From a virus: 47,808 bases of DNA. Shown piece after piece: positions 1-47,808 of the stretch. Position numbers and translations under genes: made by a program. Under the pieces are notes generated by a model that worked only from the letters and a program-made list of their open reading frames with translations, was not told the DNA's origin and did no database searches. The stretch's first letter is position 1. Each line of letters opens with the position of its first letter. The stretch spans positions 1 to 47,808 of the IMG/VR virus record IMGVR_UViG_3300047667_000757. The stretch is one strand, 5' to 3'.

Positions 1-17
1 CTAAAATACTTACATCT

Positions 18-118
18 ATGAGTAACAAAAAAGAAGAGTAATTATCGAAGGTGATATTGTTGATTTAAAAGTTACTTATGTTGCTGGTGAGCGTGTAGTT
101 ACTCAAGTTAAGCAGTAA
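18..118 (+). pseudogene. Broken copy of the small ORF at 40065-40208
   Basis: This plus-strand stretch is nearly identical to the 47-codon ORF at 40065-40208, but the reading frame is broken. The ATG at 18 runs only seven codons to a TAA at 39-41, because one base is missing relative to the other copy (GAGTAATTATC here, GAGGCAATTATC there). The rest of the protein is still encoded in another frame up to the stop at 116-118. Either haplotype A has lost the gene or this is a sequence error near the window edge. Function of the intact copy is unknown. Confidence 0.65.
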
Positions 119-120
119 AA

Positions 121-142
121 AAGGGGCGATTAAGCCCCTTTG
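121..142. terminator. Bidirectional intrinsic terminator
   Basis: Perfect 7-bp stem AAGGGGC/GCCCCTT around the loop GATTAA, with A-tract and T-tract flanks. It sits between a plus-strand small gene and the end of a minus-strand gene, so it can serve both. The same hairpin is present at 40211-40232. Confidence 0.8.
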
Positions 143-145
143 ATA

Positions 146-697
146 TTAAACCTCGGTAATTTCGTAATAAAAACCCTCTACAACAATGTCAGCTGCTGCT
201 ATTGATGTAAGTCTTATCCTAGCGCTGTTATCTATAGTGTCTTGACTAATCATAGGCAACTTAAACTGCGCTGTTACTACCACGCTAGTGTCTGCTGTCT
301 TATAATAATCGTGAGCAATATTTAAAGTGTAAGGTGATGCCGCACCTTCCGCCAAATCAAACACCAAATTCAGTTCTTGGGCAGCAGCATGATCAATAAC
401 TATATCAATTCTAAAATCAACAATATCACCAATCTTTAAACTACTAAAATCAAACTTATTAGTCGACGGGTTCCACAAGTTAGCATTACCATCAGGATTG
501 TAGACAAACGTCCTTGTGCCTAAGTTATTGTTAGTTAAGAATGTGGTGGCGGATCCTGCGCCATGCGTTATCTTTGTACCTCCGTCAGCAGGGTTTGTTG
601 CAGTATCATTAGCATAAAACCAGTAAGTTTTTGTTGCTGCTGCCGGTTGCACTGTTGATGACAATATATCTTCAAGCAGTTTATTTCTAATGCTCAT
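146..697 (-). CDS. Putative virion decoration or head-fibre protein, version A
   Basis: About 183 residues, homologous over its length to the protein at 40237-40773; shared blocks include KTYWF, YNP, LWNPxTNKFDF and LKIGD. The position downstream of the major capsid gene, and the Ser/Thr/Ala-rich, beta-predicted composition, suggest a surface structural protein such as a jelly-roll decoration or fibre. No named family was recognised. I chose the ATG at 697 because AGGA lies six to seven bases before it; the frame opens earlier only through a TTG at 703. It is the last gene of head operon A. Confidence 0.5.
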   Translation of the reverse strand: MSIRNKLLEDILSSTVQPAAATKTYWFYANDTATNPADGGTKITHGAGSATTFLTNNNLGTRTFVYNPDGNANLWNPSTNKFDFSSLKIGDIVDFRIDIVIDHAAAQELNLVFDLAEGAASPYTLNIAHDYYKTADTSVVVTAQFKLPMISQDTIDNSARIRLTSIAAADIVVEGFYYEITEV

Positions 698-706
698 GAT
701 CAATCC

Positions 707-817
707 TTATAAGGCGTTAAGCCAGTCTTGTAAAAGTTGATTTCTGTTTTGTGGGTTTGTAACTGTGCCGCCATTTGCCAAAACAATTTGAGCAAGTAAA
801 TAATTCATTGTATTCAT
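707..817 (-). CDS. Small conserved head-module protein (36 aa), version A
   Basis: A 36-residue ORF directly upstream of the decoration-like gene. It is homologous to the 47-residue ORF at 40775-40918: both carry IVLANGGT followed by RNxLLQxWLxA. Retention of this motif in two otherwise diverged haplotypes, at the same position, argues that it is a real gene. Function unknown; its place between capsid and decoration-like genes suggests a virion accessory or assembly role. Confidence 0.6.
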   Translation of the reverse strand: MNTMNYLLAQIVLANGGTVTNPQNRNQLLQDWLNAL

Positions 818-832
818 AATCAAAACTCCATT

Positions 833-861
833 AAAAAGGGCAGCATATAGCCGCCCTTTTT
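833..861 (-). terminator. Intrinsic terminator downstream of capsid A region
   Basis: Perfect 9-bp inverted repeat AAAAAGGGC/GCCCTTTTT around an 11-base loop, between the 57-aa ORF and the 36-aa ORF. It is read as a terminator or attenuator for the leftward head transcript, which would lower expression of the last two genes relative to capsid. Confidence 0.7.
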
Positions 862-875
862 AATTTAAAATAAAA

Positions 876-1049
876 CTACTTAATCTTTGTTAGCTTTAGT
901 GCATCTTTTTCAGATACGGCCAAATCAGGATTCATAGAGCTTTTAAATTTAATATCTACAATTTCAAGATGATTAACGTGTGCAAGCTCCATGACATTTT
1001 CTTTGTATTGATATGTCGGAAACTCAATAAACCAAAATTTATTTTTCAT
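876..1049 (-). CDS. Hypothetical protein (57 aa)
   Basis: A 57-codon ORF starting at ATG 1049, two bases beyond the capsid stop, so it is probably co-transcribed with the capsid gene. The product is charged, with an aromatic N-terminus (NKFWFIEF) and a Lys-rich C-terminus. Haplotype B has an unrelated 75-aa ORF at the corresponding place (40943-41170), so this looks like part of the exchanged capsid block. It could be a capsid-specific accessory protein. No family recognised. Confidence 0.55.
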   Translation of the reverse strand: MKNKFWFIEFPTYQYKENVMELAHVNHLEIVDIKFKSSMNPDLAVSEKDALKLTKIK

Positions 1050-1051
1050 GA

Positions 1052-2008
1052 TTAACCCTTAGCTGGATCAGCAATTAATAAAACACCAGCAGACTCTTTT
1101 AGTGGCATAATTAAAGTCCAGTTAGTACCGGTTTCAAGCTGCGCCTTTACTGGTGATTTTACCGCACTATTCCAAGAATAACCAAGTACTGATACGTTTT
1201 CGGTGTATTCAGCTTGGTAAGTTGTTTCTAATCGAGTCTTGCCAGTACCTTCAACAATGGCACTGCGGAAGTCGTTATTAGATGCAATAGTTGCAGCCAT
1301 TGGTAGCAAGCAAAGAACACGCTCTTTTGTACCTGCGATAAGTGCAGGACTGTCTGTAACTACTGTTCGTTTACCTAAGATATCGATTACACGAACCGTA
1401 CCTTCACGGAATAGTGTTTGACCGTTATCTAAAGCTTGGCCGATCAACTTATGAGCAGTTGCACCCGTCATAATTTGAGTAGTCAAATTCATCGAAGCAT
1501 CACCATATAACGCGTGAGTATCGTTCAATGTGTTTTGACTGACTGCACCTAGAATACCGGTTAGAGCTGACACATCTAAAACAGCAGTTGATTCATTTGA
1601 CAGTGCAGCAACTAAAACACCAATAGCTTTGTTAACCTGGTCTTGCATAACAGCCATTGATAACGACTCAGAAATAACACTTAGCGCTTCACCTGGGTTT
1701 TTGCCAATCCATGCAAGTTGGTTAGGCTCCCAAGTTAGCGGACCAAAAGCTTTCATTGTTTTAACTTCGTTCATTTGATCTTGTGATAAACCGATAGCGG
1801 TAATCGCAGCTTGGGCGGCGTATGCGTCAACATCGCGCAAAGCTTGTGATACGTTATTCCAGATGGCCTCTTCTTTAAAGTCACCCATCATCGCTTCGTT
1901 TACTAAAGCAATACCTGAAGCGGCAGTAAATAAGTCTGCTTTTTGGGTTAGTTTTATAATAATTGCAGTCTGCAGTTGTGTGTTGAATACCTTCATATCT
2001 GTTAGCAT
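1052..2008 (-). CDS. Major capsid protein, version A (by synteny)
   Basis: A 318-residue protein immediately downstream of the scaffold gene, in the slot where the other haplotype carries its 335-aa coat protein. The two proteins show no similarity I can see by eye. The size, the position after portal, MuF and scaffold, and the C-terminal run of beta-type sequence fit a HK97-fold shell protein. Its N-terminal half is Ala-rich and helical. The start at 2008 is ATG with no strong Shine-Dalgarno; ATG 1996 four codons later is an alternative. Assignment rests mainly on gene order, so a diverged or different capsid family is possible. Confidence 0.7.
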   Translation of the reverse strand: MLTDMKVFNTQLQTAIIIKLTQKADLFTAASGIALVNEAMMGDFKEEAIWNNVSQALRDVDAYAAQAAITAIGLSQDQMNEVKTMKAFGPLTWEPNQLAWIGKNPGEALSVISESLSMAVMQDQVNKAIGVLVAALSNESTAVLDVSALTGILGAVSQNTLNDTHALYGDASMNLTTQIMTGATAHKLIGQALDNGQTLFREGTVRVIDILGKRTVVTDSPALIAGTKERVLCLLPMAATIASNNDFRSAIVEGTGKTRLETTYQAEYTENVSVLGYSWNSAVKSPVKAQLETGTNWTLIMPLKESAGVLLIADPAKG

Positions 2009-2011
2009 GGT

Positions 2012-2659
2012 CTAATTACTCATTTGTCTATTGAAATATGCTGCTTCAAGAGCTTTATCACCCTTGCAAGCTTCTAATGTATCAGCCACGCCACCAGCGT
2101 TTCGACTTTGTGTTGTATCAGCCCCGCTGCTATCAACACCTTTTAATATTCGTTTAAATGAGTCTTGTTCGCTAGCCCAACTATTGAACTCGTCTACACT
2201 TTTTGCTACAACAACACCGTTATGCTCGAATGTTGGTGCGTACTGTTGTTGGTCATTATAACCATCTTTTAGCATATTTGACAACATAGCTTCTGAATTC
2301 CACTTATGATCGTCATGTATGTTGCCCATAACCTTATTCATAATGTCGCCACGGTCGCGTGATTGCAGTGCATCTTTAGCTGTTAACGCGCTTGCATTGG
2401 CTGTTGCAATAGCTGCGGTTGTTTCTTTTTCTCGTAACTCTAAAGCCTCTTTGTAGCGCCCGCTTTCGACAAGCCTTTCTTCTTCTGCGGTAACAGCAGC
2501 CTTGCGAGCATCTTCAATAATTTGGTCTTTTTCTTGCGATGTCTGTTGTGCATTGCGTTTTTCGCCTAAAATATCATCACGATTCTTTGTGATTTTTTCG
2601 TTAGCATCAGTTAGCTCGGCGATTTTATCTTGCATTACTTTAATTTCTTCTTCAGTCAT
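2012..2659 (-). CDS. Phage scaffold protein, version A
   Basis: About 215 residues, highly charged and coiled-coil-like in the first 100 (Glu/Lys/Gln-rich), as expected for an internal scaffold that directs capsid assembly and is later lost. It is mosaic with the B copy (43014-43661). A central block, from DARKAAVTAEEERLVESGRY to SVDEF, is identical at protein level, while both ends differ. I chose ATG 2659 because GGAGG lies eight bases upstream; a longer frame to 2701 lacks a good ribosome site. It sits between MuF and capsid, the usual place. Confidence 0.8.
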   Translation of the reverse strand: MTEEEIKVMQDKIAELTDANEKITKNRDDILGEKRNAQQTSQEKDQIIEDARKAAVTAEEERLVESGRYKEALELREKETTAAIATANASALTAKDALQSRDRGDIMNKVMGNIHDDHKWNSEAMLSNMLKDGYNDQQQYAPTFEHNGVVVAKSVDEFNSWASEQDSFKRILKGVDSSGADTTQSRNAGGVADTLEACKGDKALEAAYFNRQMSN

Positions 2660-2705
2660 TTTGCTTCCCTCCAAGGGATAATTTACAGCCACAGGCTGCA
2701 TTTAG

Positions 2706-3323
2706 TTATTCGGTTATTATATAATCTAGCATAGCTTGGCGCAAACGTTCATCATCCTGCTTTAATGCAACCTTTTTTATTAATGCGTACTTAAATTTCT
2801 TATAAGCATTGTGAGCATCAATAACTGAATCGAACATACCTAAGTGCTTTCTCTTTCCGTTTTCTCGGCATTGCACTTTAAATTTACCCCGCTTAGAGAC
2901 GAAACAAACTCCTCTAGGGTAAATTCCTTTAGATCTTCCACAGTCAAGAAATAGATAATTAATTACAGGTGAGACAAAGATACAAGTGTCTGGAGAATAA
3001 ACCTTATTTCCTTGTACTAATATATCCTTATCTAACTGCTTATCCTGCCAATCCTGCGATTTCATCCACCGCTTAAAGCTTGAAAACACAAACCAATCAG
3101 GGGTTACAGTGCAGTCAGTGTATGTCGGAAACCTGTTCCTATGTAGCTCGCAGTAACACCGTTCTAACATGTTTTTCCATTTTTGATAGTAAGGGCAAAT
3201 GTTTGGCTTATTGTTTATTATTGGCTGTACTAGGTATTTAGCATCGTTAACGCCTACGCCGTGAACTAATTTTCTTCTGGTTAAGGATTTTTTACAGGCT
3301 GGGATTTCTTTGAATGTATTCAT
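2706..3323 (-). CDS. HNH homing endonuclease with AP2-like domain
   Basis: About 205 residues. The N-terminal half has an HNH-type layout: YYQKWKNMLERCY, then W-F-F-W spacing, then LDKDIL, GNxxYSP and CIFV. The C-terminal part (GVCFVSKRGKFKV...MFDSVIDAHNAYKK) matches AP2-type DNA-binding domains of free-standing phage endonucleases. Such enzymes cut DNA of related phages and spread their own gene. It is inserted between scaffold and MuF in haplotype A only. ATG 3323, with GAGG five bases before it, is preferred over the TTG at 3338. Confidence 0.85.
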   Translation of the reverse strand: MNTFKEIPACKKSLTRRKLVHGVGVNDAKYLVQPIINNKPNICPYYQKWKNMLERCYCELHRNRFPTYTDCTVTPDWFVFSSFKRWMKSQDWQDKQLDKDILVQGNKVYSPDTCIFVSPVINYLFLDCGRSKGIYPRGVCFVSKRGKFKVQCRENGKRKHLGMFDSVIDAHNAYKKFKYALIKKVALKQDDERLRQAMLDYIITE

Positions 3324-3415
3324 AACAACCTCGGTCAAGAGTAGTCAAAAAAGGAGTTGCACCAGCCATTGACTAAATGGTGTTCGGTAATGAACCTAGA
3401 TGCAGATTAATTATA

Positions 3416-4534
3416 TCACGTTTTATCTTGTGCCCTTAATATATTACCAAGAGTATTATTCTTTTCTTTCATCTGCTTTATTGTTAACGGGTTGTTCATA
3501 CTGTCCCCTGTCATTTTAGCAAACTCAACTGGATTCATTTTTCTTAATGCCTTGCCTAGTGTCGGGCCTATTGCAGCATCTTGATCACTAGCCTTTAACT
3601 TTTTAAGGTTAGCATAGTAAATAGAGTCACTATCTACCGGCTTACCGTCACGTTTTCCATCAACCTCAAATGATGATGCTTTTTTAGTGTCGCTAGCATC
3701 TAATTTGAATCTATCATCAACTTCAAATGTCAACGCTGATCGGCAATTTGGATGAAGGGGTGGAGTCACACTACTTAATTTCGGATCATCTTTTGCGTAA
3801 GTTGTTTGGTCAAGCCTAGCGCATGTTCTCGATGTACGGGAATCATTAACGGCTAAAAATCTATACCCCTTCAGTATATCATCATTTTTGTCTACAAATG
3901 CTATTCGGGCTGTATTTGCGTAATGATTAGTACCTGTGATTGCTAACTGCTTAGCCGACCGCCTGGCTCTATCTAATACGCTTTTTGTAGTTCCTGATTT
4001 TGATAAATCCATCTGCGATGTAATGGCGTTAGTTATTTCAGGTATTGTTTGCCCTTCAATAAATCCCGCTTGCACCACGCCATGTATTTCATCAGACCAT
4101 TTACCCCAGTAATTCTTCATCATGCTTGAATAAGATGAATAACTGTTATCAGATAATTTGACAGGTCTGATTGTCGCAATACTATTAACTGCTGCCGATG
4201 TTGGCGCTATGGCCTTAAAATCGTCATTTTCTACTAGACCATTTAATGTACTTGCTGCAAATTCTCCTTCGTAAGCGCCTAGCTCTCTATTTTCAACTTT
4301 AAGTTGTGAGGTGTAATCTTGCAAGTGCTTACGTGTAGCTGTGTCTATTTCGTCTTGTATCTTTATTTGTAAAGCGGGTGTTACTTTACGTTTGCGATAC
4401 TTGTTAAGAATAGATACCACATCATTCTCGATTGACTCAAGATAAGGTATTACTTTTAAGCCCTCGGTAGCACCAACACGCTGTACGTGAATAGTATGCT
4501 GAGAATATATAGTGGTTAGCTTTTCGTCTGGCAT
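3416..4534 (-). CDS. MuF-like head morphogenesis protein, version A
   Basis: A 372-residue protein of the phage Mu F / SPP1 gp7 family, which joins the portal in the procapsid and may be packaged as a minor head protein. The family signature is visible around residues 225-270: AVNDSRTSRTCARLDQTTY followed by PPLHPNCRSALTF. Its ATG overlaps the portal stop by one base (TAATG), indicating translational coupling. The copy at 43702-44811 is closely similar. The intervening endonuclease gene now separates it from the scaffold. Confidence 0.9.
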   Translation of the reverse strand: MPDEKLTTIYSQHTIHVQRVGATEGLKVIPYLESIENDVVSILNKYRKRKVTPALQIKIQDEIDTATRKHLQDYTSQLKVENRELGAYEGEFAASTLNGLVENDDFKAIAPTSAAVNSIATIRPVKLSDNSYSSYSSMMKNYWGKWSDEIHGVVQAGFIEGQTIPEITNAITSQMDLSKSGTTKSVLDRARRSAKQLAITGTNHYANTARIAFVDKNDDILKGYRFLAVNDSRTSRTCARLDQTTYAKDDPKLSSVTPPLHPNCRSALTFEVDDRFKLDASDTKKASSFEVDGKRDGKPVDSDSIYYANLKKLKASDQDAAIGPTLGKALRKMNPVEFAKMTGDSMNNPLTIKQMKEKNNTLGNILRAQDKT

Positions 4535-6057
4535 TATTCACTAGCCTTTAATGCTGCGATTTCTTCAAGTGCCGCATCTAGTTGAGATTGTATGCTTGCT
4601 TGCTCCTCGCTTGTGCCACCTGTCAATGTATTTTGATTAGATAATTCAATAGCTATATCCTCGTTAGATAAATCAGTTAACTGTGCTTTTCTTGCTGTCT
4701 CATTGAGTGTAACAGCAGGTAAAATACTCCCTTGTACTAATTCCATGTGAACCTTAATCATCTCAGGTGTTAAATCATCAGTGATAAAATCAGTATTAGG
4801 CTTATACGTTGATGTACTTACTTCGCCTAAAAACTGAGCTGTCCACACAAATAACTGTGTAAATCCATCGCCGACATTGTATGACATCCGCTTTAATATA
4901 GACATAGAGGCGTTTGCATCAATACGTTTGGATGTTGCCGTCTCAGTGCTCCCGCCCGGCATTACAATCTGAGCGCCTGACATTACCATGCGATCTTCAT
5001 CACGTAGCATTTCAGTAGCTATCGCCCCTGTTGCCTCAATCTGAACTATCTCTACCCTATCATTTACGCCAAACTGGTTTTTACCTTTTGCGCCAACGTC
5101 CAAACCATTTGGGTTTGATTCCTCAAACTCACCCCCATCTTGTACGAAAATATTAGTCATACCTTGCCCATGAAAATGCAAGTTATCGCGATTATCACAA
5201 TCTAAAACAAAGTGGCCCAGGTTAACGTTAGCTAAATCATAAAGAGGAAGCTTTGAATATTCAGGGCTGTTATCATCAGCACCAAAGAATTGAAACGGTA
5301 TTTCAGTGAGTGTTGAGCCGTTGGCTACTGGCATTACATCTGATAAAAGCTCATCTTTATCGTTGAATAATTGATTGTGATAAATACCGTCAATCATAAT
5401 CAATCTTCGAATGTAGTTCTTATCCTCCCACTCAAATTCATCTTTGGGTTCGCTGCGAATTTCTACGAGCCTTATTTCATCAACAGAATTAGATTTACCA
5501 TTGTTACGAGTGTATATAATCTGGTCTGCATCAAACTGAATCCATTTAGGTGAAAACTCAGGGCTTTCGTTTTGCGCGGGTGTTAGTTGGATTCTTTCGC
5601 CCTCATCATTTACAGGCGAAGCTGGCATGTCAACTAAGATACCGTATCGAGCATCAGCAATAACTTTAGCTGTGACTTTTTGAGCGACTTCACGTAATCC
5701 ACAGCCTTTACCGTCTGCATTATCAACCAAGTATTCAAGTTTAGGCTGAATCTCCGACTCTGGCTCTTTACTCCAAACCATACCACCTAGTGTTTCATAA
5801 GTGCGACCGGTAGCCGGAAACCAACGACCACGTGACCAATAAGACCTAACCCGTAAAATGTTTTGCTCATTACATCGATTAGCTTGATTTATAGCAGCTT
5901 CATCCATCCCAACAAATGATGTAAAAGTTTTATATTGCGGCCCAGGCAAGCAGGTAATTATTTTTAATACCCCATACTTACCGGTAATAGCTGCCCTTGT
6001 TTCAGAGCGAATCTTTTCTTGCTCAATGTATTCTTGGTCTAATGTGTTTAATGCCAT
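4534..6057 (-). CDS. Portal protein (DUF4055 family), version A
   Basis: About 507 residues of the DUF4055 portal family, which forms the dodecameric DNA gateway at the head vertex. Recognisable blocks: YWSRGRWFPATGRT, GGMVWSKEP, LEYLVDNADGKG, GILVDMP and, further on, the conserved segment with FFGADDNSPEYSKLPLYDLA. The protein ends in a coiled-coil-like Glu/Ala-rich tail. ATG 6057 has AAGG eight bases upstream and starts at the same residue as the B copy; GTG 6063 is less likely. The B portal is clearly orthologous but diverged. Confidence 0.9.
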   Translation of the reverse strand: MALNTLDQEYIEQEKIRSETRAAITGKYGVLKIITCLPGPQYKTFTSFVGMDEAAINQANRCNEQNILRVRSYWSRGRWFPATGRTYETLGGMVWSKEPESEIQPKLEYLVDNADGKGCGLREVAQKVTAKVIADARYGILVDMPASPVNDEGERIQLTPAQNESPEFSPKWIQFDADQIIYTRNNGKSNSVDEIRLVEIRSEPKDEFEWEDKNYIRRLIMIDGIYHNQLFNDKDELLSDVMPVANGSTLTEIPFQFFGADDNSPEYSKLPLYDLANVNLGHFVLDCDNRDNLHFHGQGMTNIFVQDGGEFEESNPNGLDVGAKGKNQFGVNDRVEIVQIEATGAIATEMLRDEDRMVMSGAQIVMPGGSTETATSKRIDANASMSILKRMSYNVGDGFTQLFVWTAQFLGEVSTSTYKPNTDFITDDLTPEMIKVHMELVQGSILPAVTLNETARKAQLTDLSNEDIAIELSNQNTLTGGTSEEQASIQSQLDAALEEIAALKASE

Positions 6058-6179
6058 CGTCACAGCCTTATATAATTTTCTTTATTATATCATTAATAGC
6101 TAAATAAATTAAACTTCGCTTGTAATAGTGCCAATCATGCCTTATATTAATGCCAATGATGACAAATAAAGGGGTTTAT

Positions 6180-6341
6180 ATGAATGTTTTGACACGAAAG
6201 ATTAGAAACAAGGGTTACAAGCTAACTGAGTTTTGCGATGCCAACCTAATATCACTTAGGAGCTATCGCAGATACGAAAAAGAAAACAATGCTAATCATG
6301 CAATGCTTAATCGTTTAATCAATGAATTGGAGAATAAATAA
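6180..6341 (+). CDS. Small putative DNA-binding protein (53 aa), version A
   Basis: A 53-residue basic protein, similar to the ORF at 46719-46883 over its C-terminal two-thirds (SYRRYEKE, NANHAMLNRLINELENK). The pattern resembles a truncated helix-turn-helix of the small phage-regulator type; this is inference. ATG 6180 has AAGGGG six bases upstream, so I prefer it to the ATG at 6150. It opens a plus-strand island lying antisense within the leftward head operon, and its stop overlaps the next start. Confidence 0.55.
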   Translation: MNVLTRKIRNKGYKLTEFCDANLISLRSYRRYEKENNANHAMLNRLINELENK

Positions 6342-6526
6342 TGACATCATTAAAAGCAGCACATGAAAAAACAGTAATGGACAAATTAACAATAAGCGTA
6401 AGTGTTACAGAGCTAGAAATATTTAAAGATTTAATTAAAATCTGTACAGATTTTTACTTAGACATGCCTGAAGATATGCGTATTAAATATGATGAGTTGG
6501 AAGATAAAATTAAGGAGAATAAATAA
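6341..6526 (+). CDS. Hypothetical protein (61 aa)
   Basis: A 61-residue ORF starting in a TAATG overlap with the previous gene, with GGAGAATAA as ribosome site. It is acidic and helical, probably an alpha-helical dimer (ELEIFKDLIKIC, DELEDKIKENK). It has no counterpart in haplotype B. Its stop overlaps the next start in the same way. Function unknown. Confidence 0.55.
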   Translation: MTSLKAAHEKTVMDKLTISVSVTELEIFKDLIKICTDFYLDMPEDMRIKYDELEDKIKENK

Positions 6527-6999
6527 TGAAAACAGTGATCGACATGGTTAATGAGCTTCAAGGCGAATGGCACAAAAGCAAAGATCAATTGTATGCTTGT
6601 GACAAAGGGGTGATTACTAACTATGATAATTTTATGCTCGCAGTAGCGGAATGCGAAACTAATTTTGGTAAGTGTGAACAGAGTTATAGTGATTATAAGT
6701 CTGAATATCATTATGGATATAGTAACCAAAGACTTATTGACATACAAATAGCAATGAGCAAACCACCAGTGTACACGCAAGAAATGGTTGCTAACGGTGT
6801 CTTACCTAGTATGGGTATGGATTGCTTATCAAAAAAATCCCATCAAGATGATAGTTACTTTAACAAGAGTTACATTAACGGTTACAGTCGAGATGGTAAA
6901 TGGTTAATATTTACCGACTACTTAGGTAATATAGAATCACACAATATCAGTAATGGAGTTTATGACTTCAAGCCACTAACAGTAGGGGATAAAGCATGA
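6526..6999 (+). CDS. Hypothetical protein with a domain shared with 15369-15950
   Basis: A 157-residue protein of unknown function. Its C-terminal half repeats the pattern of the protein at 15369-15950: YTQEM, then N-x-VLPS-x-G, then a tyrosine/glycine-rich stretch with W and GN, then FKPLTV at the end. I infer a common small beta-rich domain used in two unrelated operons of this phage. It is absent from haplotype B. Translationally coupled to its neighbours by TAATG and a four-base overlap. Confidence 0.6.
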   Translation: MKTVIDMVNELQGEWHKSKDQLYACDKGVITNYDNFMLAVAECETNFGKCEQSYSDYKSEYHYGYSNQRLIDIQIAMSKPPVYTQEMVANGVLPSMGMDCLSKKSHQDDSYFNKSYINGYSRDGKWLIFTDYLGNIESHNISNGVYDFKPLTVGDKA

Positions 7000-7184
7000 A
7001 CTATCAAAACATAGCAATAATAGTATTTGTATCAATACTGGCATTTGTAGTTATCCGTGGGCTAATCTGCTGGTACTTTAAAATTAATGAGCGTATAGCA
7101 TTACAACATAAATCATTAGTTAATCAGAAGCGTATGATTGACCAGTTAACGCAGTTGAACATTAATATTAAAGGGGTAACTTAA
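6996..7184 (+). CDS. Small membrane-anchored protein (62 aa), version A
   Basis: 62 residues with one strongly hydrophobic N-terminal segment (about residues 5-25, IAIIVFVSILAFVVIRGLI) followed by a charged helical tail (RIALQHKSLVNQKRMIDQLT). This is the layout of a single-pass inner-membrane protein with a cytoplasmic or periplasmic coiled coil. It is nearly identical to the ORF at 46880-47068, the only island gene strongly kept in both haplotypes. Its 3' end overlaps the terminase stop on the other strand by four bases. Function unknown. Confidence 0.65.
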   Translation: MNYQNIAIIVFVSILAFVVIRGLICWYFKINERIALQHKSLVNQKRMIDQLTQLNINIKGVT

Positions 7185-16623: not shown

Positions 16624-16649
16624 TATTATATTCCTTATTGTTTATAGTA

Positions 16650-17087: not shown

Positions 17088-17098
17088 TATTATATTCC

Positions 17099-39188: not shown

Positions 39189-39226
39189 GATTGACCTTGT
39201 GATTTAAACTTTTATTTAATAGCTCA

Positions 39227-39255
39227 ATTATAGCACGGCTGCAATAAATTAAAAA
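39227..39255 (-). promoter_or_regulatory. Candidate leftward promoter of the tail operon
   Basis: A perfect TATAAT (minus strand, 39232-39227) with a poor -35 (TTTTTA) 17 bases upstream. This form suggests activator dependence, as in many late promoters. Confidence 0.45.
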
Positions 39256-39261
39256 TAATCG

Positions 39262-39290
39262 TTGATATGTACGAGTTAACGTACTAATAT
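39262..39290 (+). promoter_or_regulatory. Rightward promoter with operator in spacer
   Basis: TTGATA, 17-base spacer, TAATAT. The spacer is an inverted repeat, GTACG-AGTTAA-CGTAC (39269-39284), so a repressor bound there would block polymerase. Confidence 0.7.
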
Positions 39291-39320
39291 GTGTACAGGT
39301 TATTTAATTAAGGAATAAGC

Positions 39321-39719: not shown

Positions 39720-39891
39720 CGGCGCATCATTCAGGAAGCGACTTGCTGAACACATGAACGAATGCGAAGAGAGCGGTATTCCTGTACTTGTTTACACTAG
39801 TAAAGATGGGCGAGAAGATCCGCAACAAATGATAGTAATCAGCAAAGCCCAATACGATATGATGATTGATAAAATTAATGGAGATAAATAA
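39706..39891 (+). CDS. Phd/YefM-like antitoxin or regulator (61 aa)
   Basis: 61 residues resembling the Phd/YefM fold: NGASFRKRLAEHMNECEESG, then IPVLVYTSKDGRE and IVISKAQYDMMID, in the usual helix-strand-strand-helix order. Such proteins bind operator palindromes and may neutralise a toxin, but no toxin gene follows. The operator GTACG/CGTAC upstream is a candidate site. ATG 39706, with AAGGA about seven bases before it, is chosen over the ATG at 39664. Confidence 0.6.
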   Translation: MKIINGASFRKRLAEHMNECEESGIPVLVYTSKDGREDPQQMIVISKAQYDMMIDKINGDK

Positions 39892-40061
39892 TGATTAGTA
39901 CAATAGAGTTTGAGCTAGATAAATCCTGCGTAAAAGGCTTTATAAGCTGGGAGCGACTAAAAAATTTAATTGAATCATTAAACAATGGCGAGGATATCAC
40001 TCATTTTGAATTAACCGAGCAAGGCATAGCTTTTGGTTTACGTGAATCAGTAGGAGAATAA
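39891..40061 (+). CDS. Hypothetical protein (56 aa)
   Basis: 56 residues, mixed, with ISTIEFELDKSCVKGFISWE and a C-terminal GIAFGLRESVGE. ATG overlaps the previous stop (TAATG). It lies where a toxin would be expected after a Phd-like gene but shows no Doc, YoeB or RelE features. Function unknown. Confidence 0.5.
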   Translation: MISTIEFELDKSCVKGFISWERLKNLIESLNNGEDITHFELTEQGIAFGLRESVGE

Positions 40062-40064
40062 ATC

Positions 40065-40208
40065 ATGGTACCCATACTAATGATGACAGCTAAAATGATC
40101 TCAGGCATGAGCAAGAAAAAAGAAGAGGCAATTATCGAGGGTGATATTGTTGATCTGAAAGTTACTTATGTTGACGGTGAGCGTGTAGTTACTGAAGTTA
40201 AGAAATAA
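40065..40208 (+). CDS. Hypothetical protein (47 aa)
   Basis: 47 residues with Met-rich start (MVPILMMTAKMISGMSKKK) and a beta-type end (IVDLKVTYVDGERVVTEV). It might be a small membrane-anchored or peripheral protein. The same gene is broken at 18-118 in haplotype A. Followed by the shared terminator. Ribosome site TAGGAGAATAAATC. Confidence 0.55.
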   Translation: MVPILMMTAKMISGMSKKKEEAIIEGDIVDLKVTYVDGERVVTEVKK

Positions 40209-40210
40209 AT

Positions 40211-40232
40211 AAAGGGGCGATTAAGCCCCTTT
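40211..40232. terminator. Bidirectional intrinsic terminator
   Basis: AAAGGGGC-GATTAA-GCCCCTTT stem, same hairpin as at 121-142. Separates the rightward unit from the end of head operon B. Confidence 0.8.
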
Positions 40233-40236
40233 ATCA

Positions 40237-40773
40237 TTAAACCTCTGTTACTACAGTTGACCAAAACTCACCAGTGATGGATGCAGCTTGTACACTTGCA
40301 AACCTAATTGTTGCCCCGCCTGATATAGCGTCAGCGTCGTGCATCAAGATAGCGTACGTGAAAGTCACTTCCGTACCGGTTGCAGCAGTTTTAAAATAAG
40401 TGTGGTTAACTTGGTGCTCATGGGCCGATGCTGTACCCTCGGCCATCGATATAAATATGTCAATTTCTTGAGCAGCTAAATTATCAAGGGTTACACTGCC
40501 CGTCACTGTGGCAACGTCCCCAATTTTTAGCGGCGTAAAATCAAACTTATTAGTAACAGGGTTCCATAGCGCGGCTTTAGAATTAGGATTATATTCGATA
40601 CTCCTTGATCCAAGACTGTTATTTAGCAAATACGTGTTACTCGCACCACCCGCGTGAGCCAATGCAGGGTTGGTACTTTCATTGACAAACCAATATGTTT
40701 TAGTAAAACCAGAGCCAGCACCTCCTGGTGTTGCCGTTAATATGTCTTGTAATAATGCATTTACGCTAGGCAT
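40237..40773 (-). CDS. Putative virion decoration or head-fibre protein, version B
   Basis: About 178 residues, orthologous to 146-697 with the shared KTYWF, YLLNNxLGSR, LWNPVTNKFDF and LKIGD blocks but diverged elsewhere. As in A it is the last gene after capsid. ATG 40773 has GGGGG just upstream and is preferred over the TTG at 40785. Presence of diverged copies beside dissimilar capsids suggests it is not strictly specific for one capsid. Confidence 0.5.
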   Translation of the reverse strand: MPSVNALLQDILTATPGGAGSGFTKTYWFVNESTNPALAHAGGASNTYLLNNSLGSRSIEYNPNSKAALWNPVTNKFDFTPLKIGDVATVTGSVTLDNLAAQEIDIFISMAEGTASAHEHQVNHTYFKTAATGTEVTFTYAILMHDADAISGGATIRFASVQAASITGEFWSTVVTEV

Positions 40774-40774
40774 T

Positions 40775-40918
40775 CTAACCCCCAATAGCTGTCAACCAGC
40801 TTTGTAATAATGAATTTCTATCATTGCTGATAATGGTGCCGCCATTAGCTAGCACTATACTAACCAGCAAATGATTAAGTATCTCTTCTTCTTCAGTTCT
40901 TGATCTATTTGTAGACAT
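40775..40918 (-). CDS. Small conserved head-module protein (47 aa), version B
   Basis: 47 residues; the C-terminal two-thirds match 707-817 (IVLANGGT, RNSLLQSWLTA), while the first 12 residues are a charged extension (NRSRTEEEE). Ends one base before the next start. Function unknown. Confidence 0.6.
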   Translation of the reverse strand: MSTNRSRTEEEEILNHLLVSIVLANGGTIISNDRNSLLQSWLTAIGG

Positions 40919-40942
40919 AATTACCACCAAAAAATAAGAAGG

Positions 40943-41170
40943 TTATTCAGTGAGTCTTTCTTCAGCCAAGCGCTTAGGATCAACCTTTACAGGTATTACC
41001 TTAGCGGTACGGGCTAATTTATTGCAATCATTTAATGATGCTTGCTTTGCTAACTCAGCCGGCTTCAATGTTAATTTTAACTCTTTTACTTTATCTTCAA
41101 GTTTTTTAATTTCAACCCAAATTTTATTGTTGAACTCGATTGGTGTTAATTCTGTTTCTAACTTTGCCAT
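40943..41170 (-). CDS. Hypothetical coiled-coil protein (75 aa)
   Basis: 75 residues, Lys/Glu-rich and helical, with KKLEDKVKELKLTLKP as a likely coiled coil. It occupies the slot of the 57-aa ORF of haplotype A but shows no similarity to it. It might be specific for capsid B. It follows the HNH gene directly. Confidence 0.5.
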   Translation of the reverse strand: MAKLETELTPIEFNNKIWVEIKKLEDKVKELKLTLKPAELAKQASLNDCNKLARTAKVIPVKVDPKRLAEERLTE

Positions 41171-41171
41171 T

Positions 41172-41912
41172 TTATTTCCTTAGTTTAAACCATTCTGGAT
41201 AATTATCACTTTGTATTCTACCATGTATTCCAGATATTGACATTGAATGAAATTTTGCGGCCTGTGATAGTGATGAAAACCTACCTTTAGGTGTAGATAC
41301 TGATGGTGGTGTTCTTGATAGAGCCATTGCAGTGTCCCAGCCTGAGTTCAATCTTCTTGCTATGGTTCCTCTTTTTATTCCAGTTAACTTGGCCCATTGC
41401 TGCAATGTAAGAGACTTACCGGCAAGACTGATAACTCTATTGCTTGATTTGTTATTTGCTTGCTCTTCTTTTGTTGCCCATTTGCAATTTAACTTACAAT
41501 AACCACCGTCATTATCTATCCTTTCTATGGAATGATCTATTGTTGGAGGCTCTCCCATATCACTAGAAAATAAATCAAAACTATTTGACCATTCATCGCT
41601 AACGCTTATGCCTCTGCCGCCATAATTGACATATCTTTGTGCGCTAGGGTTTTGACATCTAGCTTTCATTGTTCGCCATGTATAATAAAGCTTGCCGCCT
41701 AATTCTTTATTTAGCTTTGACATTCCGTGAGTCGTGTGATGTTTTGCTCTTGATTTATTTGCGCAACTTTTACACTTAGTTGTATTTCCTCTTTTTATAT
41801 TTTCTTTCATACATTGAAACTTCTCACCACAACTACATTCAGCAATGCACATTATCCTAGTGAGTTTTGCGCACTTTCTCTTTACCGACCACTCTTTAAT
41901 TATATTTAACAT
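41172..41912 (-). CDS. HNH homing endonuclease with N-terminal zinc ribbon
   Basis: 246 residues in three parts. The N-terminus carries two Cys pairs (CSCGEKF and CKSCAN) that fit a zinc ribbon. The nuclease core has YTWRTMKARCQNP, YGGRGISVSDEW, then IERIDNDGGYCKLNCKWATKEEQANNK, the HNH-like signature of free-standing phage endonucleases. The C-terminus has two helix-turn-helix-like repeats (LTLQQWAKLTGI, SSLSQAAKFHSM) for site recognition. Inserted downstream of capsid B only. ATG 41912 lies directly after the T-run of a terminator hairpin. Confidence 0.87.
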   Translation of the reverse strand: MLNIIKEWSVKRKCAKLTRIMCIAECSCGEKFQCMKENIKRGNTTKCKSCANKSRAKHHTTHGMSKLNKELGGKLYYTWRTMKARCQNPSAQRYVNYGGRGISVSDEWSNSFDLFSSDMGEPPTIDHSIERIDNDGGYCKLNCKWATKEEQANNKSSNRVISLAGKSLTLQQWAKLTGIKRGTIARRLNSGWDTAMALSRTPPSVSTPKGRFSSLSQAAKFHSMSISGIHGRIQSDNYPEWFKLRK

Positions 41913-41915
41913 AAA

Positions 41916-41948
41916 AAAATACCCTTTTGAAATTATCTCCAGGGTATT
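41916..41948 (-). terminator. Terminator-like hairpin between capsid B and HNH gene
   Basis: On the minus strand AATACCCT, 15-base loop, AGGGTATT, then T-rich sequence leading into the HNH ATG. The loop contains GGAGATAA. It would limit read-through into the endonuclease gene. Confidence 0.65.
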
Positions 41949-41984
41949 ATATCCGTTTTATTGATTTAACTCAATGGTGCATTT

Positions 41985-42992
41985 TTACCCATTGGTTTGC
42001 AAAAAACATAACGGTACGTTCTTGCGTTCCCAAACTCGCGACCAGTTGGCAGTGGTAGCAAGTTCAGCCAATGTAGCAGACTGCCCAGCAACAGAAGCTG
42101 AACTGAATTCAAAGCCAAGCGGATGAATGATATCAGCACGACGTGAATATAAGTCAGATTGGCCGCCGCCGTTACCTTTGTCAGGTGAGCGATATAATTC
42201 ACTAGGTACTAAAGTTCGACCCATACCAGCCACTACAGCCCCGTTACCAAAAATAACAGTTGTATAAGTCACTCGGTTAGTACCCGCGATAGCACTTAGC
42301 GAATCATCAACAACAACACGTAAGTTACCGTAGGTTTGAAACAAAGTGTTATTATCTGCGTCACGAATAAAAGTAATTAACTGCTGCTTACGTAAGCGAC
42401 TATAAACAACTGAGTGCATAGCAATGGCACTAAAGCCATCTTGATGATCTCCGGCAGTTTGCTGGGCATCCAAAATGGCATCGTTCGAAATTAATTCAGC
42501 GGCGGTAATAGCACCGGCAGAATCCGTAGCAATATTAACAACCATGTCACTTGCATCATTTGCAACGTTATCATTTAAAATACCCATCGTTGATTGAATT
42601 AAACGGCGCTCGTTAGTTGTCGCCCAATAAGCGCCAATACGACTAGTGATTGCTTGAACTGGATCTTCCAAAGCTAAATCAACGGCAATATCCATCGTTG
42701 ACCAAGACTGATTTTGACTAGCAAGGCGATATTTCATAATCGCTTTAGTAATCTTGTTTGGCGTTGATGAATTACCGGTCACATCATCAGAGTAGTTAGG
42801 CTCTTGAGTACCTAGCGGCTTAAAGAAAGGAAGTTCGCCAATATTACCACCAACAGAAGCCATTGCTGTAATGCGGGGATCTTCTACCATGACACCGGAT
42901 GCCATGAATGCGTTTAGCTCTATTTGTGATTCTTGCTCAGCAGCAGAGAAAACAAGCGGGTTATAGATATCCGCGATTTGTACATTAGCCAT
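41985..42992 (-). CDS. Major capsid protein, version B (coat protein)
   Basis: 335 residues resembling the HK97-fold coat protein group called major capsid protein 13-like: N-terminal ADIYNPLVFSAAEQESQIELN, GVMVEDPRITAMASVGGNIGELPFFKPL, YRLASQNQSW, a central spine region with ERRLIQST and HSVVYSRLRKQQL, and a C-terminal beta segment. It builds the icosahedral shell around the scaffold. Dissimilar by eye from the version A product in the same slot. Preceded by a normal ribosome site (AAAAGGTAATGAATA). Confidence 0.8.
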   Translation of the reverse strand: MANVQIADIYNPLVFSAAEQESQIELNAFMASGVMVEDPRITAMASVGGNIGELPFFKPLGTQEPNYSDDVTGNSSTPNKITKAIMKYRLASQNQSWSTMDIAVDLALEDPVQAITSRIGAYWATTNERRLIQSTMGILNDNVANDASDMVVNIATDSAGAITAAELISNDAILDAQQTAGDHQDGFSAIAMHSVVYSRLRKQQLITFIRDADNNTLFQTYGNLRVVVDDSLSAIAGTNRVTYTTVIFGNGAVVAGMGRTLVPSELYRSPDKGNGGGQSDLYSRRADIIHPLGFEFSSASVAGQSATLAELATTANWSRVWERKNVPLCFLQTNG

Positions 42993-43013
42993 TATTCATT
43001 ACCTTTTATAAAA

Positions 43014-43661
43014 TTAATAGTTAGAGCCTGTTTTATTGGCGTGTATCGCCTGCTCTGTCAGTGTCATTTTTTTACCAGTAGCTCTGCCACTTGGTGAGGT
43101 ATCGGCTCCGCTAGAATCTACACCTTTTAAAATCGTCTTAAATGAGTCTTGTTCTCCAGCCCAGCTTTTGAACTCGTCTACACTTTTTGCTACAACAACA
43201 CCGTTATGCTCGAATGTTGGTGCGTACTGTTGTTGGTCATTATAACCATCTTTTAGCATATTTGACAACATAGCTTCAGAATTCCACTTATGATCGTCAT
43301 GTATGTTACCCATCACCTTGTTCATAATGTCGCCACGGTCGCGTGATTGTAATGCATCTTTAGCTGTTAATGCGCTTGCATTGGCTGTCGCAATAGCTGC
43401 GGTTGTTTCTTTTTCTCGTAACTCTAAAGCCTCTTTGTAGCGCCCGCTTTCAACAAGTCTTTCCTCTTCAGCGGTAACAGCGGCCTTGCGAGCATCTTCT
43501 AAAGCCTGTTCTTTTTCAGTCAAGCCTTGCTGTGCTGTTTTCTTTTCACCAAGTAATTGATCCACTTTGTTTTTTAAGCCGCCTATTTCGCTATCAAATA
43601 AAGCTGATAATTTAGCCGTTTGCTCTTCATTTAATCCATCGATACTAGTTAAATCTACCAT
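43014..43661 (-). CDS. Phage scaffold protein, version B
   Basis: 215 residues, charged coiled coil in the first half, with the same central block as the A copy (DARKAAVTAEEERLVESGRY to SVDEF). The N-terminal 55 residues (GLNEEQTAKLSALFDSEIGG) and the C-terminal 40 residues differ from A. Ribosome site GGGGGACAG precedes ATG 43661. It lies directly between MuF and capsid. Confidence 0.8.
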   Translation of the reverse strand: MVDLTSIDGLNEEQTAKLSALFDSEIGGLKNKVDQLLGEKKTAQQGLTEKEQALEDARKAAVTAEEERLVESGRYKEALELREKETTAAIATANASALTAKDALQSRDRGDIMNKVMGNIHDDHKWNSEAMLSNMLKDGYNDQQQYAPTFEHNGVVVAKSVDEFKSWAGEQDSFKTILKGVDSSGADTSPSGRATGKKMTLTEQAIHANKTGSNY

Positions 43662-43701
43662 TTTTCTGTCCCCCTAGGACTTTTGCAAGGCTCTGCCTCG
43701 T

Positions 43702-44811
43702 TTATTGCGATCGAAGTATTCGACCTAATTCATTATTCTTTTCTTTCATCTGCTTTATAGTTAATGGGTTGTTCATACTATCACCGGTTTGTTTCGCAAA
43801 TTCTCTAGCATCCATTTTACGTAACGCTTTACCTAGTGTTGGGCCTATCGCAGCATCTTGATCACTAGCCTTTAACTTTTTAAGATTCTCATAATAAATA
43901 GAATCACTATCTACCGTCTTACCGTCACGTTTACCATCAACTTCAAATGATGATGCTTTTTTAGTGTCGCTAGCATCTAATTTAAATCTATCATCAACTT
44001 CAAACGTCAACGCTGAACGGCAATTTGGATGAAGCGGTGGAGTCACACTGCTCAATTTTGGGTCATCCTTTGCGTAAGTTGTTTGATCAAGTCTCGCGCA
44101 TGCTCTCGATGTTCGGGAATCATTAACAGCTAAAAATCTATACCCCTTTAGTATATCATCATTCTTATCTACAAATGCTATTCGGGCCGTATTTGCATAG
44201 TGATTAGCGCCTGTGATTGCCAATTGCTTAGCCGACCGCCTGGCTCTATCTAATACGCTTTTAGTTGTTCCTGACTTTGACAAATCCATCTGAGCGGTTA
44301 TAGCATTGGTTATTTCAGGTATTGTTTGACCTTTGCGAAATCCATCCAATACAACACCATTAACTTCATCTGACCATTGCCCCCAATATTTTTTCATCAT
44401 GCTTGAATAAGAAGAGTAACTATTATCAGATAACTTAACTGGTGTGATTGTCGCAATACTGTTTACTGCTGCCGCCGTTGGGGCTACAGCCTTAAACTCG
44501 TCATTTTCTACCAAGCCATTCAAGGTGCTTGCTGCAAATTCACCTTCATAAGCGCCCAACTCTCTATTTTCAACTTTCAACTGTGAGGTGTAATCTTGTA
44601 AGTGCTTGCGTGTAGCTGTGTCTATTTCGTCTTGTATCTTTATTTGTAAAGCGGGTGTTACTTTACGTTTGCGATACTTGTTAAGAATAGATACCACATC
44701 ATTCTCGATTAATTCAAGATATGGTATTACTTTTAAGCCCTCAGTAGCACCCAAGCGCTGCACATGAATTGTGTGCTGAGAATAAATAGTGGTTAGCTTC
44801 TCATCTGACAT
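43702..44811 (-). CDS. MuF-like head morphogenesis protein, version B
   Basis: 369 residues, closely similar to the A copy, with AVNDSRTSRACARLDQTTY and PPLHPNCRSALTF. Substitutions cluster around residues 105-165. Starts in a TAATG overlap with the portal. Role as for the A copy. No endonuclease is inserted after it here. Confidence 0.9.
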   Translation of the reverse strand: MSDEKLTTIYSQHTIHVQRLGATEGLKVIPYLELIENDVVSILNKYRKRKVTPALQIKIQDEIDTATRKHLQDYTSQLKVENRELGAYEGEFAASTLNGLVENDEFKAVAPTAAAVNSIATITPVKLSDNSYSSYSSMMKKYWGQWSDEVNGVVLDGFRKGQTIPEITNAITAQMDLSKSGTTKSVLDRARRSAKQLAITGANHYANTARIAFVDKNDDILKGYRFLAVNDSRTSRACARLDQTTYAKDDPKLSSVTPPLHPNCRSALTFEVDDRFKLDASDTKKASSFEVDGKRDGKTVDSDSIYYENLKKLKASDQDAAIGPTLGKALRKMDAREFAKQTGDSMNNPLTIKQMKEKNNELGRILRSQ

Positions 44812-46343
44812 TATTCACTAGCCTTTAGCACTGCGATTTCTTCAAGTGCTGCATCTAGTTGGGCTTGGATGCTTGCTTGCTCTTCGCTTGTGCCGCCCGT
44901 CAATGTATTTTGATTAGATAATTCAATGGCTATATTTTCGTTAGATAAATCGGTTAGTTGTGCTTTACGTGCTGTTTCATTGAGTGTAACAGCCGGTAAA
45001 ATATTACCCTGAACTAATGCGATATGAGCGTTAATCATCTCAGGCGTTAAATCATCAGTGATAAAATCAGAGTTTAATTTATATGTTGATTCGCCTGTTT
45101 CGCCTAAAAATAATGAGGTCCATGTAAATAATTGCTTGAACCCATCACTAATATTATATGAGATGCGCTTTAATGCTGACATTGACGCATTAGCATCGAT
45201 ACGTTTAGCGCCTAATGTCTCGTTTGCTGAATTGTCAGTTACAAGTTGTGCGCCTGACATTACCATACGGTCTTCATCACGAAGCATTTCAGTAGCTATA
45301 GCGCCTGTCGCCTCTATTTGTATAATCTCAACTTTGCCGGCTGCATCAAGCATGTTCATGCCGCGCGCGCCAACATCTAAACCGTTAGGGTTCATCTCGT
45401 CAAATTCTTCTCTACCCATATCAGTTGACACGACTGTCATACCTTGGCCGTGGTAATGCAAGTTATCGCGGTTATCGCAATCTAAAACAAAGTGGCCCAG
45501 GTTAACGTTAGCTAAATCATAAAGCGGTAATTTTGAATACTCAGGGCTGTTATCATCAGCACCAAAGAATTGAAAAGGGATCTCAGTTAGTGCCTTACCA
45601 TTAGCAACTGGCTTAACCCTGCCCTTAAGCTTTTGCTCCTCATCATAAAGCTCATTGTAGTAAACCCCGTTATCAATAACCAACCTACGAACAAACTCTT
45701 TATCATCCCATTTGAATTTATCTTTAGGGTCTTGCACACTGTGAATCTCAGTCAATCTTATTTCATCAACTGAATTAGATTTACCAGAAGATCTGAAATA
45801 TATTATCTGCTCGGCCTTGTATTGTATCCACTTTGGTAGGAATTCAACACTCTCATTCTGAGCGCGAGTTAAGGAAACCCTTTTACCTTTACTGTCTACA
45901 GGGGAAGATGGCATATCAATCAAAATACCATAGCGAGCAGCACCTATAACTTCAGATGTGACTTTTTGCGCAACTTCGCGCAAGCCGCAACCTTTCCCAT
46001 CCGCATTATCAATCAAATACTCAAGCTTAGGTCGTATCTCTGATTCTGGTTCTTTACTCCAAATCATACCGCCCAATGTTTCGTGGGTGCGACCTGTGGC
46101 AGGAAACCAGCGACCACGTGACCAATAAGAGCTAATACGCAATATATTTTGCTCGTTACACCTGATAGCTTGTCTTTCTGCAAACTCACTCATGCCAGGA
46201 AAAGTGTTAAAAGTTTTATATTGCGGTCCAGGCAAGCAGGTAATTATTTTTAATACCCCATGCTTGCCGGCAATAGCTGCCCTTGTTTCAGAGCGTATTT
46301 CTTCTTGCTCAATGTATTCTTGATCTAATGTGTTTAATGCCAT
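44811..46343 (-). CDS. Portal protein (DUF4055 family), version B
   Basis: About 510 residues with the same family blocks as version A (YWSRGRWFPATGRT, LEYLIDNADGKG, FFGADDNSPEYSKLPLYDLA). Differences concentrate around residues 45-65, 175-250 and 320-345. The C-terminal coiled coil is nearly unchanged. ATG 46343 with AAGG upstream is preferred over GTG 46349. Stop couples to MuF. Confidence 0.9.
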   Translation of the reverse strand: MALNTLDQEYIEQEEIRSETRAAIAGKHGVLKIITCLPGPQYKTFNTFPGMSEFAERQAIRCNEQNILRISSYWSRGRWFPATGRTHETLGGMIWSKEPESEIRPKLEYLIDNADGKGCGLREVAQKVTSEVIGAARYGILIDMPSSPVDSKGKRVSLTRAQNESVEFLPKWIQYKAEQIIYFRSSGKSNSVDEIRLTEIHSVQDPKDKFKWDDKEFVRRLVIDNGVYYNELYDEEQKLKGRVKPVANGKALTEIPFQFFGADDNSPEYSKLPLYDLANVNLGHFVLDCDNRDNLHYHGQGMTVVSTDMGREEFDEMNPNGLDVGARGMNMLDAAGKVEIIQIEATGAIATEMLRDEDRMVMSGAQLVTDNSANETLGAKRIDANASMSALKRISYNISDGFKQLFTWTSLFLGETGESTYKLNSDFITDDLTPEMINAHIALVQGNILPAVTLNETARKAQLTDLSNENIAIELSNQNTLTGGTSEEQASIQAQLDAALEEIAVLKASE

Positions 46344-46468
46344 CGTCACAGCCTTATTTAATTTTCTTTATTATATCATTAATAGCTAAATAAATTAAAC
46401 TTACCTTGCTATAGTGCCAATAAGTGTTAGGATGGTGTCAATAGATATCAATTACAAGGGTTTATATA

Positions 46469-46744
46469 ATGAATCAAGTAAAAGTAAATAAAAGAAAGTT
46501 ATGGCGTAAAACTTATGGAAAGCCATTTGTTATTAGGAAGTCAATTGCTATAGCTCAATGTACAGCAAACACGGCACAAAGCATATCTAGGTTGTCGTTA
46601 ATATGTTCTGCAAACACAGATGAGTTCATTAAGGGGATGGCCATTGCTGGAGCTATATTAGCACAAGCAAAAAACACAAGTGATACATTAGAGGTGTCAC
46701 GCAAGGGGTTTGTAAATAATGAACGCAACAACACAGCGAATTAA
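46469..46744 (+). CDS. Hypothetical protein (91 aa)
   Basis: 91 residues, basic N-terminus (NKRKLWRKTYGKPF) and an Ala/Ser-rich helical region (CTANTAQSISRLSLICSAN). First gene of the B island, absent from A. It overlaps the next ORF by 26 bases. Function unknown. Confidence 0.5.
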   Translation: MNQVKVNKRKLWRKTYGKPFVIRKSIAIAQCTANTAQSISRLSLICSANTDEFIKGMAIAGAILAQAKNTSDTLEVSRKGFVNNERNNTAN

Positions 46745-46883
46745 ATCTAAAGGTTATAATTTGCCTGAGTTTTTAAAGAAAACAGGTATCAGCCTTAGCA
46801 CTTACCGCAGATACGAAAAAGAAAGCAATGCTAATCATGCAATGCTTAATCGTTTAATTAATGAATTGGAGAATAAATCATGA
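46719..46883 (+). CDS. Small putative DNA-binding protein (54 aa), version B
   Basis: 54 residues, homologous to 6180-6341 in its last two-thirds (YRRYEKE, NANHAMLNRLINELENK), with an N-terminal RIKSKGYNLPEFLKKTGISL that reads like a helix-turn-helix. Starts at ATG 46719 inside the previous gene; stop overlaps the next start (ATGA). Confidence 0.55.
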   Translation: MNATTQRIKSKGYNLPEFLKKTGISLSTYRRYEKESNANHAMLNRLINELENKS

Positions 46884-47068
46884 ACTATCAAAGCATAGCG
46901 ATAATAGTATTTGTATCAATACTGGTATTTTTAGTCATCCGTGGGTTGATTTGCTGGTACTTTAAGATTAATGAGCGTATCGCATTACAACAGAAATCGT
47001 TAGTTAATCAGAAACGTATGATTGACCAGTTAACGCAGTTGAATATTAATATTAAAGGGGATAAGTAG
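46880..47068 (+). CDS. Small membrane-anchored protein (62 aa), version B
   Basis: 62 residues, nearly identical to 6996-7184: an N-terminal membrane helix (IAIIVFVSILVFLVIRGLI) and a charged coil. In A it is the last gene before terL; here two further genes have been added after it. Confidence 0.65.
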   Translation: MNYQSIAIIVFVSILVFLVIRGLICWYFKINERIALQQKSLVNQKRMIDQLTQLNINIKGDK

Positions 47069-47248
47069 ATGTTCAACATAAGAAATCATGAGTTTGAAGA
47101 TGGCTCTATTGTTGATGCTGATCCAGCTAAAGGGTCAAGGTTGTTTTTAAATTTCACTGACTCAGTATTTTGCGTGAAGCTATGCGAAAAAGACGCTATA
47201 GCTATAGCCAAGCATTTTGGGTATTTAATTGATTTAGAGGTTAAGTAG
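47069..47248 (+). CDS. Hypothetical protein (59 aa)
   Basis: 59 residues, acidic, with EFEDGSIVDADPAKGSRLFL and FCVKLCEKDAIAIAKHFGYL. Starts immediately after the previous TAG. Only in haplotype B. No family recognised. Confidence 0.5.
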   Translation: MFNIRNHEFEDGSIVDADPAKGSRLFLNFTDSVFCVKLCEKDAIAIAKHFGYLIDLEVK

Positions 47249-47440
47249 ATGACTAGATATTTTGAATTTTTAATTACATCAATCGCTATTATTGTGTTTA
47301 TTTTTGTTTGCTCACTTGTTGTTGTTGAGTACGTTAAGCAACTAAACAAAGAAGAGTTACAAAAAGTAACTTATGAAGAGTGCATCAAAACAGATTACGA
47401 TAAGTTTCAGTGTTATTCAATGATTTACGGGGATAAGTAG
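47249..47440 (+). CDS. Small single-pass membrane protein (63 aa)
   Basis: 63 residues with an N-terminal hydrophobic helix (about 7-27, FLITSIAIIVFIFVCSLVVV) followed by a charged segment with two cysteines. Same architecture as the preceding membrane gene but not obviously homologous. Convergent with terL, meeting it end to end. Only in haplotype B. Confidence 0.5.
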   Translation: MTRYFEFLITSIAIIVFIFVCSLVVVEYVKQLNKEELQKVTYEECIKTDYDKFQCYSMIYGDK

Positions 47441-47808
47441 TTAGTCTATGTTTAAGCGCCCACCTTGACGCTTAACTAAATGAGGACACGCGCCCATGAT
47501 AAAGCTATCGGCTAAATCATGGGATTTCTCAATCCTCTTCTTAACTTCTTTCTTAGACTCGACCATATCCAACCCACGTTTAGAATAATCTGCCCTTGGT
47601 GCTGATAGCTCGCCTTTTAATTCTTCCAAGCCTTTTAAGTCCGATGATATGCTAATCAATTGACTAATATCATATTTCATACCCTTTGTAACAGCGTTAA
47701 ATGTATTCCTCATTCTGTCTGCAACATCACGCCACGCTTGAGCTTTTAGGTTCTCAAATTTCTTCTTGTTTGTTATTTTCGGTGAATACTCCCGGGTAGG
47801 ATTAAATA
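47441..47808 (-). CDS. terL: Terminase large subunit, version B, C-terminal part
   Basis: The frame is open to the window edge and continues at 7552-8566 once the circle is closed. Joined, the gene is 1383 bases, 460 residues, one fewer than version A and in frame across the junction. This part carries the last nuclease segment (HDLADSFIMGACPHLVKRQ). Differences from A increase towards the stop, with the last 127 bases of the window identical. Confidence 0.9.
   Translation of the reverse strand, partial: FNPTREYSPKITNKKKFENLKAQAWRDVADRMRNTFNAVTKGMKYDISQLISISSDLKGLEELKGELSAPRADYSKRGLDMVESKKEVKKRIEKSHDLADSFIMGACPHLVKRQGGRLNID
47682..47808. repeat. Right-end copy of the 127-bp exact match
   Basis: Identical to 7425-7551, running to the last base of the window. 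It starts directly after a G/A difference. It defines where the circle of 40,257 bp closes. Confidence 0.95.

Follow-up and report, generated by a model that had tools for sequence, protein, structure and literature searches.

The IMG/VR record IMGVR_UViG_3300047667_000757, whose whole stretch of 47,808 nt is called the window here, is almost certainly a rho-shaped (lasso) chimeric contig, in which an assembler would have joined two phages, A and B. The record shows a familiar sort of artefact and not a real feature, and is of low interest beyond data curation.

We found that the window's last 127 bases (47682-47808) are an exact copy of 7425-7551, that this pair forms the longest exact repeat within the window, and that the bases preceding the two copies differ (TCATG versus TCATA). 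Joining 47808 to 7552 closes a circle of 40,257 bp, in which the rejoined terL is 1383 nt long and encodes 460 amino acids plus a stop, with no internal stops. A sequence-only reading of the window had already reported the 127-base match, the differing base before it, the closure at 40,257 bp and a terL of 1383 nt in frame, all of which were reproduced here. A search of the window for tRNAs found none. The features around the repeat are the following.

7552-47808, complete circular map of phage B, based on the identity of 47682-47808 with 7425-7551, the in-frame closure of terL at 460 aa and the simulated B edge, which is whole at 7462-47808
47682-47808, 127-bp repeat of 7425-7551 (exact match), the putative de Bruijn vertex where the contig stops
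7425-7588, 164-bp exact identity between A and B within terL, the putative false-join point and the one edge that A and B have in common at k=127
7181-8566 (minus strand), terL ORF of the window, a hybrid of A-type last codons and a B-type remainder (PF04466, phrog_3717)
47441-47806, phage B's own terL C-terminal end
1-7424, foreign tail assigned to phage A, with a decoration-like gene, MCP-A, scaffold, HNH endonuclease, MuF, portal and the last terL codons; matches IMGVR_UViG_3300049783_000837

The earlier description of 1-7424 as a diverged version of the head module was accurate. This segment and 40107-47681, the capsid genes excepted, align piecewise at 81-94.5% DNA identity (18-157 with 40107-40248, 2105-2533 with 43089-43517, 3455-6186 with 43732-46471, and 7188-7551 with 47445-47808), and the two head modules, A and B, occupy equivalent positions. 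The genes compared in the two modules, all on the minus strand, are the following.

1052-2008, MCP of phage A (PF20036, phrog_247), 100% identical to G001 (the record matched by 1-7424) at 40204-41157
41985-42992, MCP of phage B (phrog_247), without a match in G001
2012-2701, head scaffold gene of phage A (phrog_206), containing the 110-bp identity with B (2184-2293) that is the site of the hybrid start of G001
43014-43661, head scaffold gene of phage B (phrog_206), of which 43153-43277 equal G001 1-125
3416-4534, MuF-like head morphogenesis protein of phage A (PF04233, phrog_241)
43702-44811, MuF-like head morphogenesis protein of phage B (phrog_241)
4534-6063, portal of phage A (PF13264, phrog_145)
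44811-46349, portal of phage B (phrog_145)

No DNA-level alignment was obtained between the major capsid genes of A and B, and their products, although both assigned to phrog_247, share only 23% identity in a partial alignment; the decoration-like gene is also diverged (~43%). The flanking proteins, in contrast, are conserved, with amino acid identities of 93% for MuF, 86% for the scaffold and 96% for the head-tail adaptor. To judge from these alignments, it looks as if a capsid gene has been replaced inside an otherwise conserved head module. The underlying biology is the known mosaicism of phages, in which related phages exchange capsid genes while neighbouring genes stay similar. Beside the swapped capsid genes lie HNH endonuclease genes, at 2706-3338 in A and 41172-41912 in B, which are different genes in different places; the A copy shows a weak AP2 match below the cut-off. 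These endonucleases might have favoured the capsid gene exchange.

A terL protein search of IMG/VR recovered the owner of module A, the record IMGVR_UViG_3300049783_000837 (G001; 41,458 bp). Positions 39150-41458 of G001 are 100% identical to window 1-2309, and positions 6-6426 share 98.1% identity with window 2174-8585. When G001 was compared base by base with window 1-7588, the only differences were at 4373 and at four positions near its own hybrid start, but mismatches became frequent from window 7589 onward; the agreement covers all of module A plus 37 bases past the 127-base repeat, after which the two sequences part. G001 carries MCP-A at 100% identity, whereas a search for MCP-B in it gave no match. 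To the left of window base 1, G001 runs into sequence of its own, unlike that of the circle (140 bases compared). The foreign piece 1-7424 recurs in G001, where it is flanked to the left and to the right by another genome, and we assign it to a different phage, A, of ~41.3 kb. The earlier claim that the window is more than one genome was borne out in the form of a complete B circle plus a fragment of A, with G001 as the owner of the fragment.

G001 is itself also a hybrid, which provides a further, independent indication. Its bases 1-125 are exact B sequence (43153-43277), turning to A over the 110-bp run, the second-longest exact match of the two phages, where the start of G001 carries 15 bases of B-type sequence. 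The final 126 bases of G001 are found again from its base 16. Since the start of G001 is a hybrid with B, B-type sequence was present in the source sample of G001. The window and G001 switch partner at the two longest A/B identities (164 and 110 bp), and the two records resolve each other: in G001 the 164-bp run is crossed within A sequence, and in the window the 110-bp run (2184-2293) has A sequence to its left and right. The start of G001 would have formed by merging at the 110-bp run in a graph of k=99 or less, and its 126-base repeat would reflect an assembler with contig overlaps of k-1.

For comparison with B, phage A was cut to a circle of 41,317 bp and the two circles were compared in 500-bp fragments, which gave ~84% identity over 36% of the length. 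As this is below the species criterion applied (95% identity), A and B are different phages and not haplotypes. Protein identities of 73-96% were obtained for several head, neck and tail genes, and tblastn searches in A showed that many early B genes have no counterpart there, including DnaB and the replication protein at 21674-22366. No exact match of A with B is longer than the 164-bp run in terL (window 7425-7588), and the 110-bp run in the scaffold gene ranks second. The sequence-only reading had proposed two haplotypes of one phage sharing 33 kb; this part of it failed, as G001 diverges on both sides of the join and only the 164 bp in terL are common at k=127, and the 33 kb claimed as common appears to be B's alone among the sequences compared.

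Metagenomes of JGI/IMG have been assembled with metaSPAdes at k = 33, 55, 77, 99 and 127 (PMC10604447), and we built a simulated de Bruijn graph from the A and B circles at k=127. The graph has three edges, namely the 164 bp at window 7425-7588, an A loop of 41,407 bp and a B loop of 40,347 bp, the last of which is whole at window 7462-47808 and ends exactly at the window's last base; at k=99 or less, A and B merge also at the 110-bp run. Read against the k=127 graph, the window consists of the final part of the A loop, the shared edge and the entire B loop. The earlier argument that a repeat of this length points to an assembly vertex at k=127 is thereby strengthened. Because the true A/B identity reaches 7588, 37 bases further than the repeat, it is the contig end that fixes the length of 127, not biology. 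The window has the marks of a lasso contig, in that its end repeats an interior site over a length equal to an assembler k and in that an exact A/B run longer than k lies at the join, with no other such run present.

We propose that two distinct, related phages, A and B, were both present in the sequenced community and presumably occurred together in the window's own sample. As the terL run of 164 identical bases would exceed the k of the assembler (presumably 127, with an assembler of the above kind), the graph would have merged A and B there. The path would have led along A (1-7424) through the shared 7425-7588 into B and once round the B circle, stopping at the shared vertex; a stop on the return to this vertex would make the last 127 bases repeat 7425-7551. 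Such a path accounts for the record without any phage molecule that contains both head modules. Two observations count against this explanation: the two-genome graph has no branch at window base 1, the left end there being one that low coverage or a third strain may have caused, and a single base, 4373, separates the window from G001 within module A proper. If the contig is a chimera, the coverages of A and B should sum only over 7425-7588.

A rival reading takes the contig for two haplotypes of a single phage, distinct in the head module alone and with 7552 to ~40,090 in common, for example a real recombinant with the A head and the B remainder. It would also account for the equivalent positions of the two modules and their piecewise alignment, and homologous recombination at the 164-bp identity could presumably take place in a doubly infected cell. 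We nevertheless consider this very unlikely. The window's first 127 bases have no second occurrence in the window, and its first ~140 bases are only 88% like the circle, so that, contrary to what a haplotype would show, A has no return into the circle at its left end, a point missed by the sequence-only reading; in G001, the sequence both left and right of module A belongs to a different genome; and the identity of at least 95% outside the alternative segment that haplotypes would have contrasts with the ~84% over 36% found. Moreover, no other terL-bearing contig with B-type terL DNA was found in IMG/VR; searches for other B-type contigs gave none with the tape measure protein and three distant ones with DnaB. 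That the contig partly records a minority recombinant, with the A head module, the B remainder and a crossover in the 164-bp terL identity, is in our judgement very improbable.

Read literally, the deposited contig is a real phage genome of at least 47 kb with two diverged head modules, arisen by duplication or by acquisition of a second module, a reading to which we give practically no credence. The repeat is exactly k long and lies at the contig end. In a portal search of 18 other records, 17 had one match and one had none, the window alone having two, and at the threshold used MCP-A and MCP-B occurred together in no other record searched with both. The isolate relatives with a related terminase, among those listed, are 31-44 kb in size. 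These searches, together with G001, which has module A alone, lead us to reject also a tandem duplication, which the earlier reading had taken to be less likely. We also considered the opposite pairing, with A-left plus B-right real and G001 chimeric; it implies a circle of ~81.6 kb with two full gene sets, which is implausible given that relatives with a single copy measure 15-42 kb and isolates 31-44 kb.

A chimeric lasso contig, which we prefer, has close parallels among assembly artefacts. De Bruijn assemblers are unable to pair upstream with downstream pieces across such identities (PMC11443906), and for CheckV, chimeric sequences from closely related viruses are among the artefacts stated to escape detection so far (PMC8116208). 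The window resembles the inter-strain and inter-species chimeric contigs described (PMC11443906, PMC8116208) in having a false join at an identity longer than k, but differs in that one partner is a complete circle, hence a lasso, and in that the genome of the foreign partner is present in the same public collection. It likewise resembles the k-length terminal repeats of circular contigs (CheckV extended data, PMC8116208), seen as an excess of terminal repeats at assembler k lengths (PMC8116208), in that the repeat length equals an assembler k; however, the window's repeat pairs the contig end with an interior site, and for this reason it is missed by the start/end repeat test of IMG/VR and CheckV and the record is classed as linear, being 7.5 kb too long.

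Records of this kind can mislead gene counts, size statistics and gene-sharing networks. In the present one, portal, capsid protein and scaffold each occur twice, a combination shown for no single phage, and the earlier warning not to count both head modules as one genome holds. A simple screen for contigs of which either end recurs internally over an exact assembler k would flag such records. For the window, phage B can be read as 7552-47808, while phage A has a record to itself (G001).

Among known phages, Vibrio phages 1.144.O (MG592515) and V039C (MN956515) have a TerL 71-72% identical to the product of the window ORF 7181-8566; they are distant relatives of the window, with genomes of 43-44 kb and one terL match. 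A megablast search of window 1-25000 against the phage collection gave a single short match, to Vibrio phage 1.091.O. The contig NVVV01000067.1, which was placed in the bin of a Robiginitomaculum MAG, carries the gene for an MCP with 87% identity to MCP-B; a length of 39,014 bp suggests that it is a phage contig in the bin and not a host gene. In another relative, IMGVR_UViG_3300014508_000004, bases 2-99 are repeated exactly as the last 98 bases, so that a circle of 36,798 bp results; IMG/VR lists this record among those whose ends it classes, despite its end recurring near its start.

In the window, the 24-base sequence ATAAACAATAAGGAATATAATAAT immediately precedes the start codon ATG of three early genes in a row, all on the minus strand (16621-16645, 17085-17109 and 17396-17420), and G001 has one copy of it, at 17832. 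Other genes are preceded by a second leader, CAACAAATAAAGAGAATGAATATG, which is also repeated, as a set at 18574, 18923 and 20357. Both are probably repeated ribosome-binding leaders.
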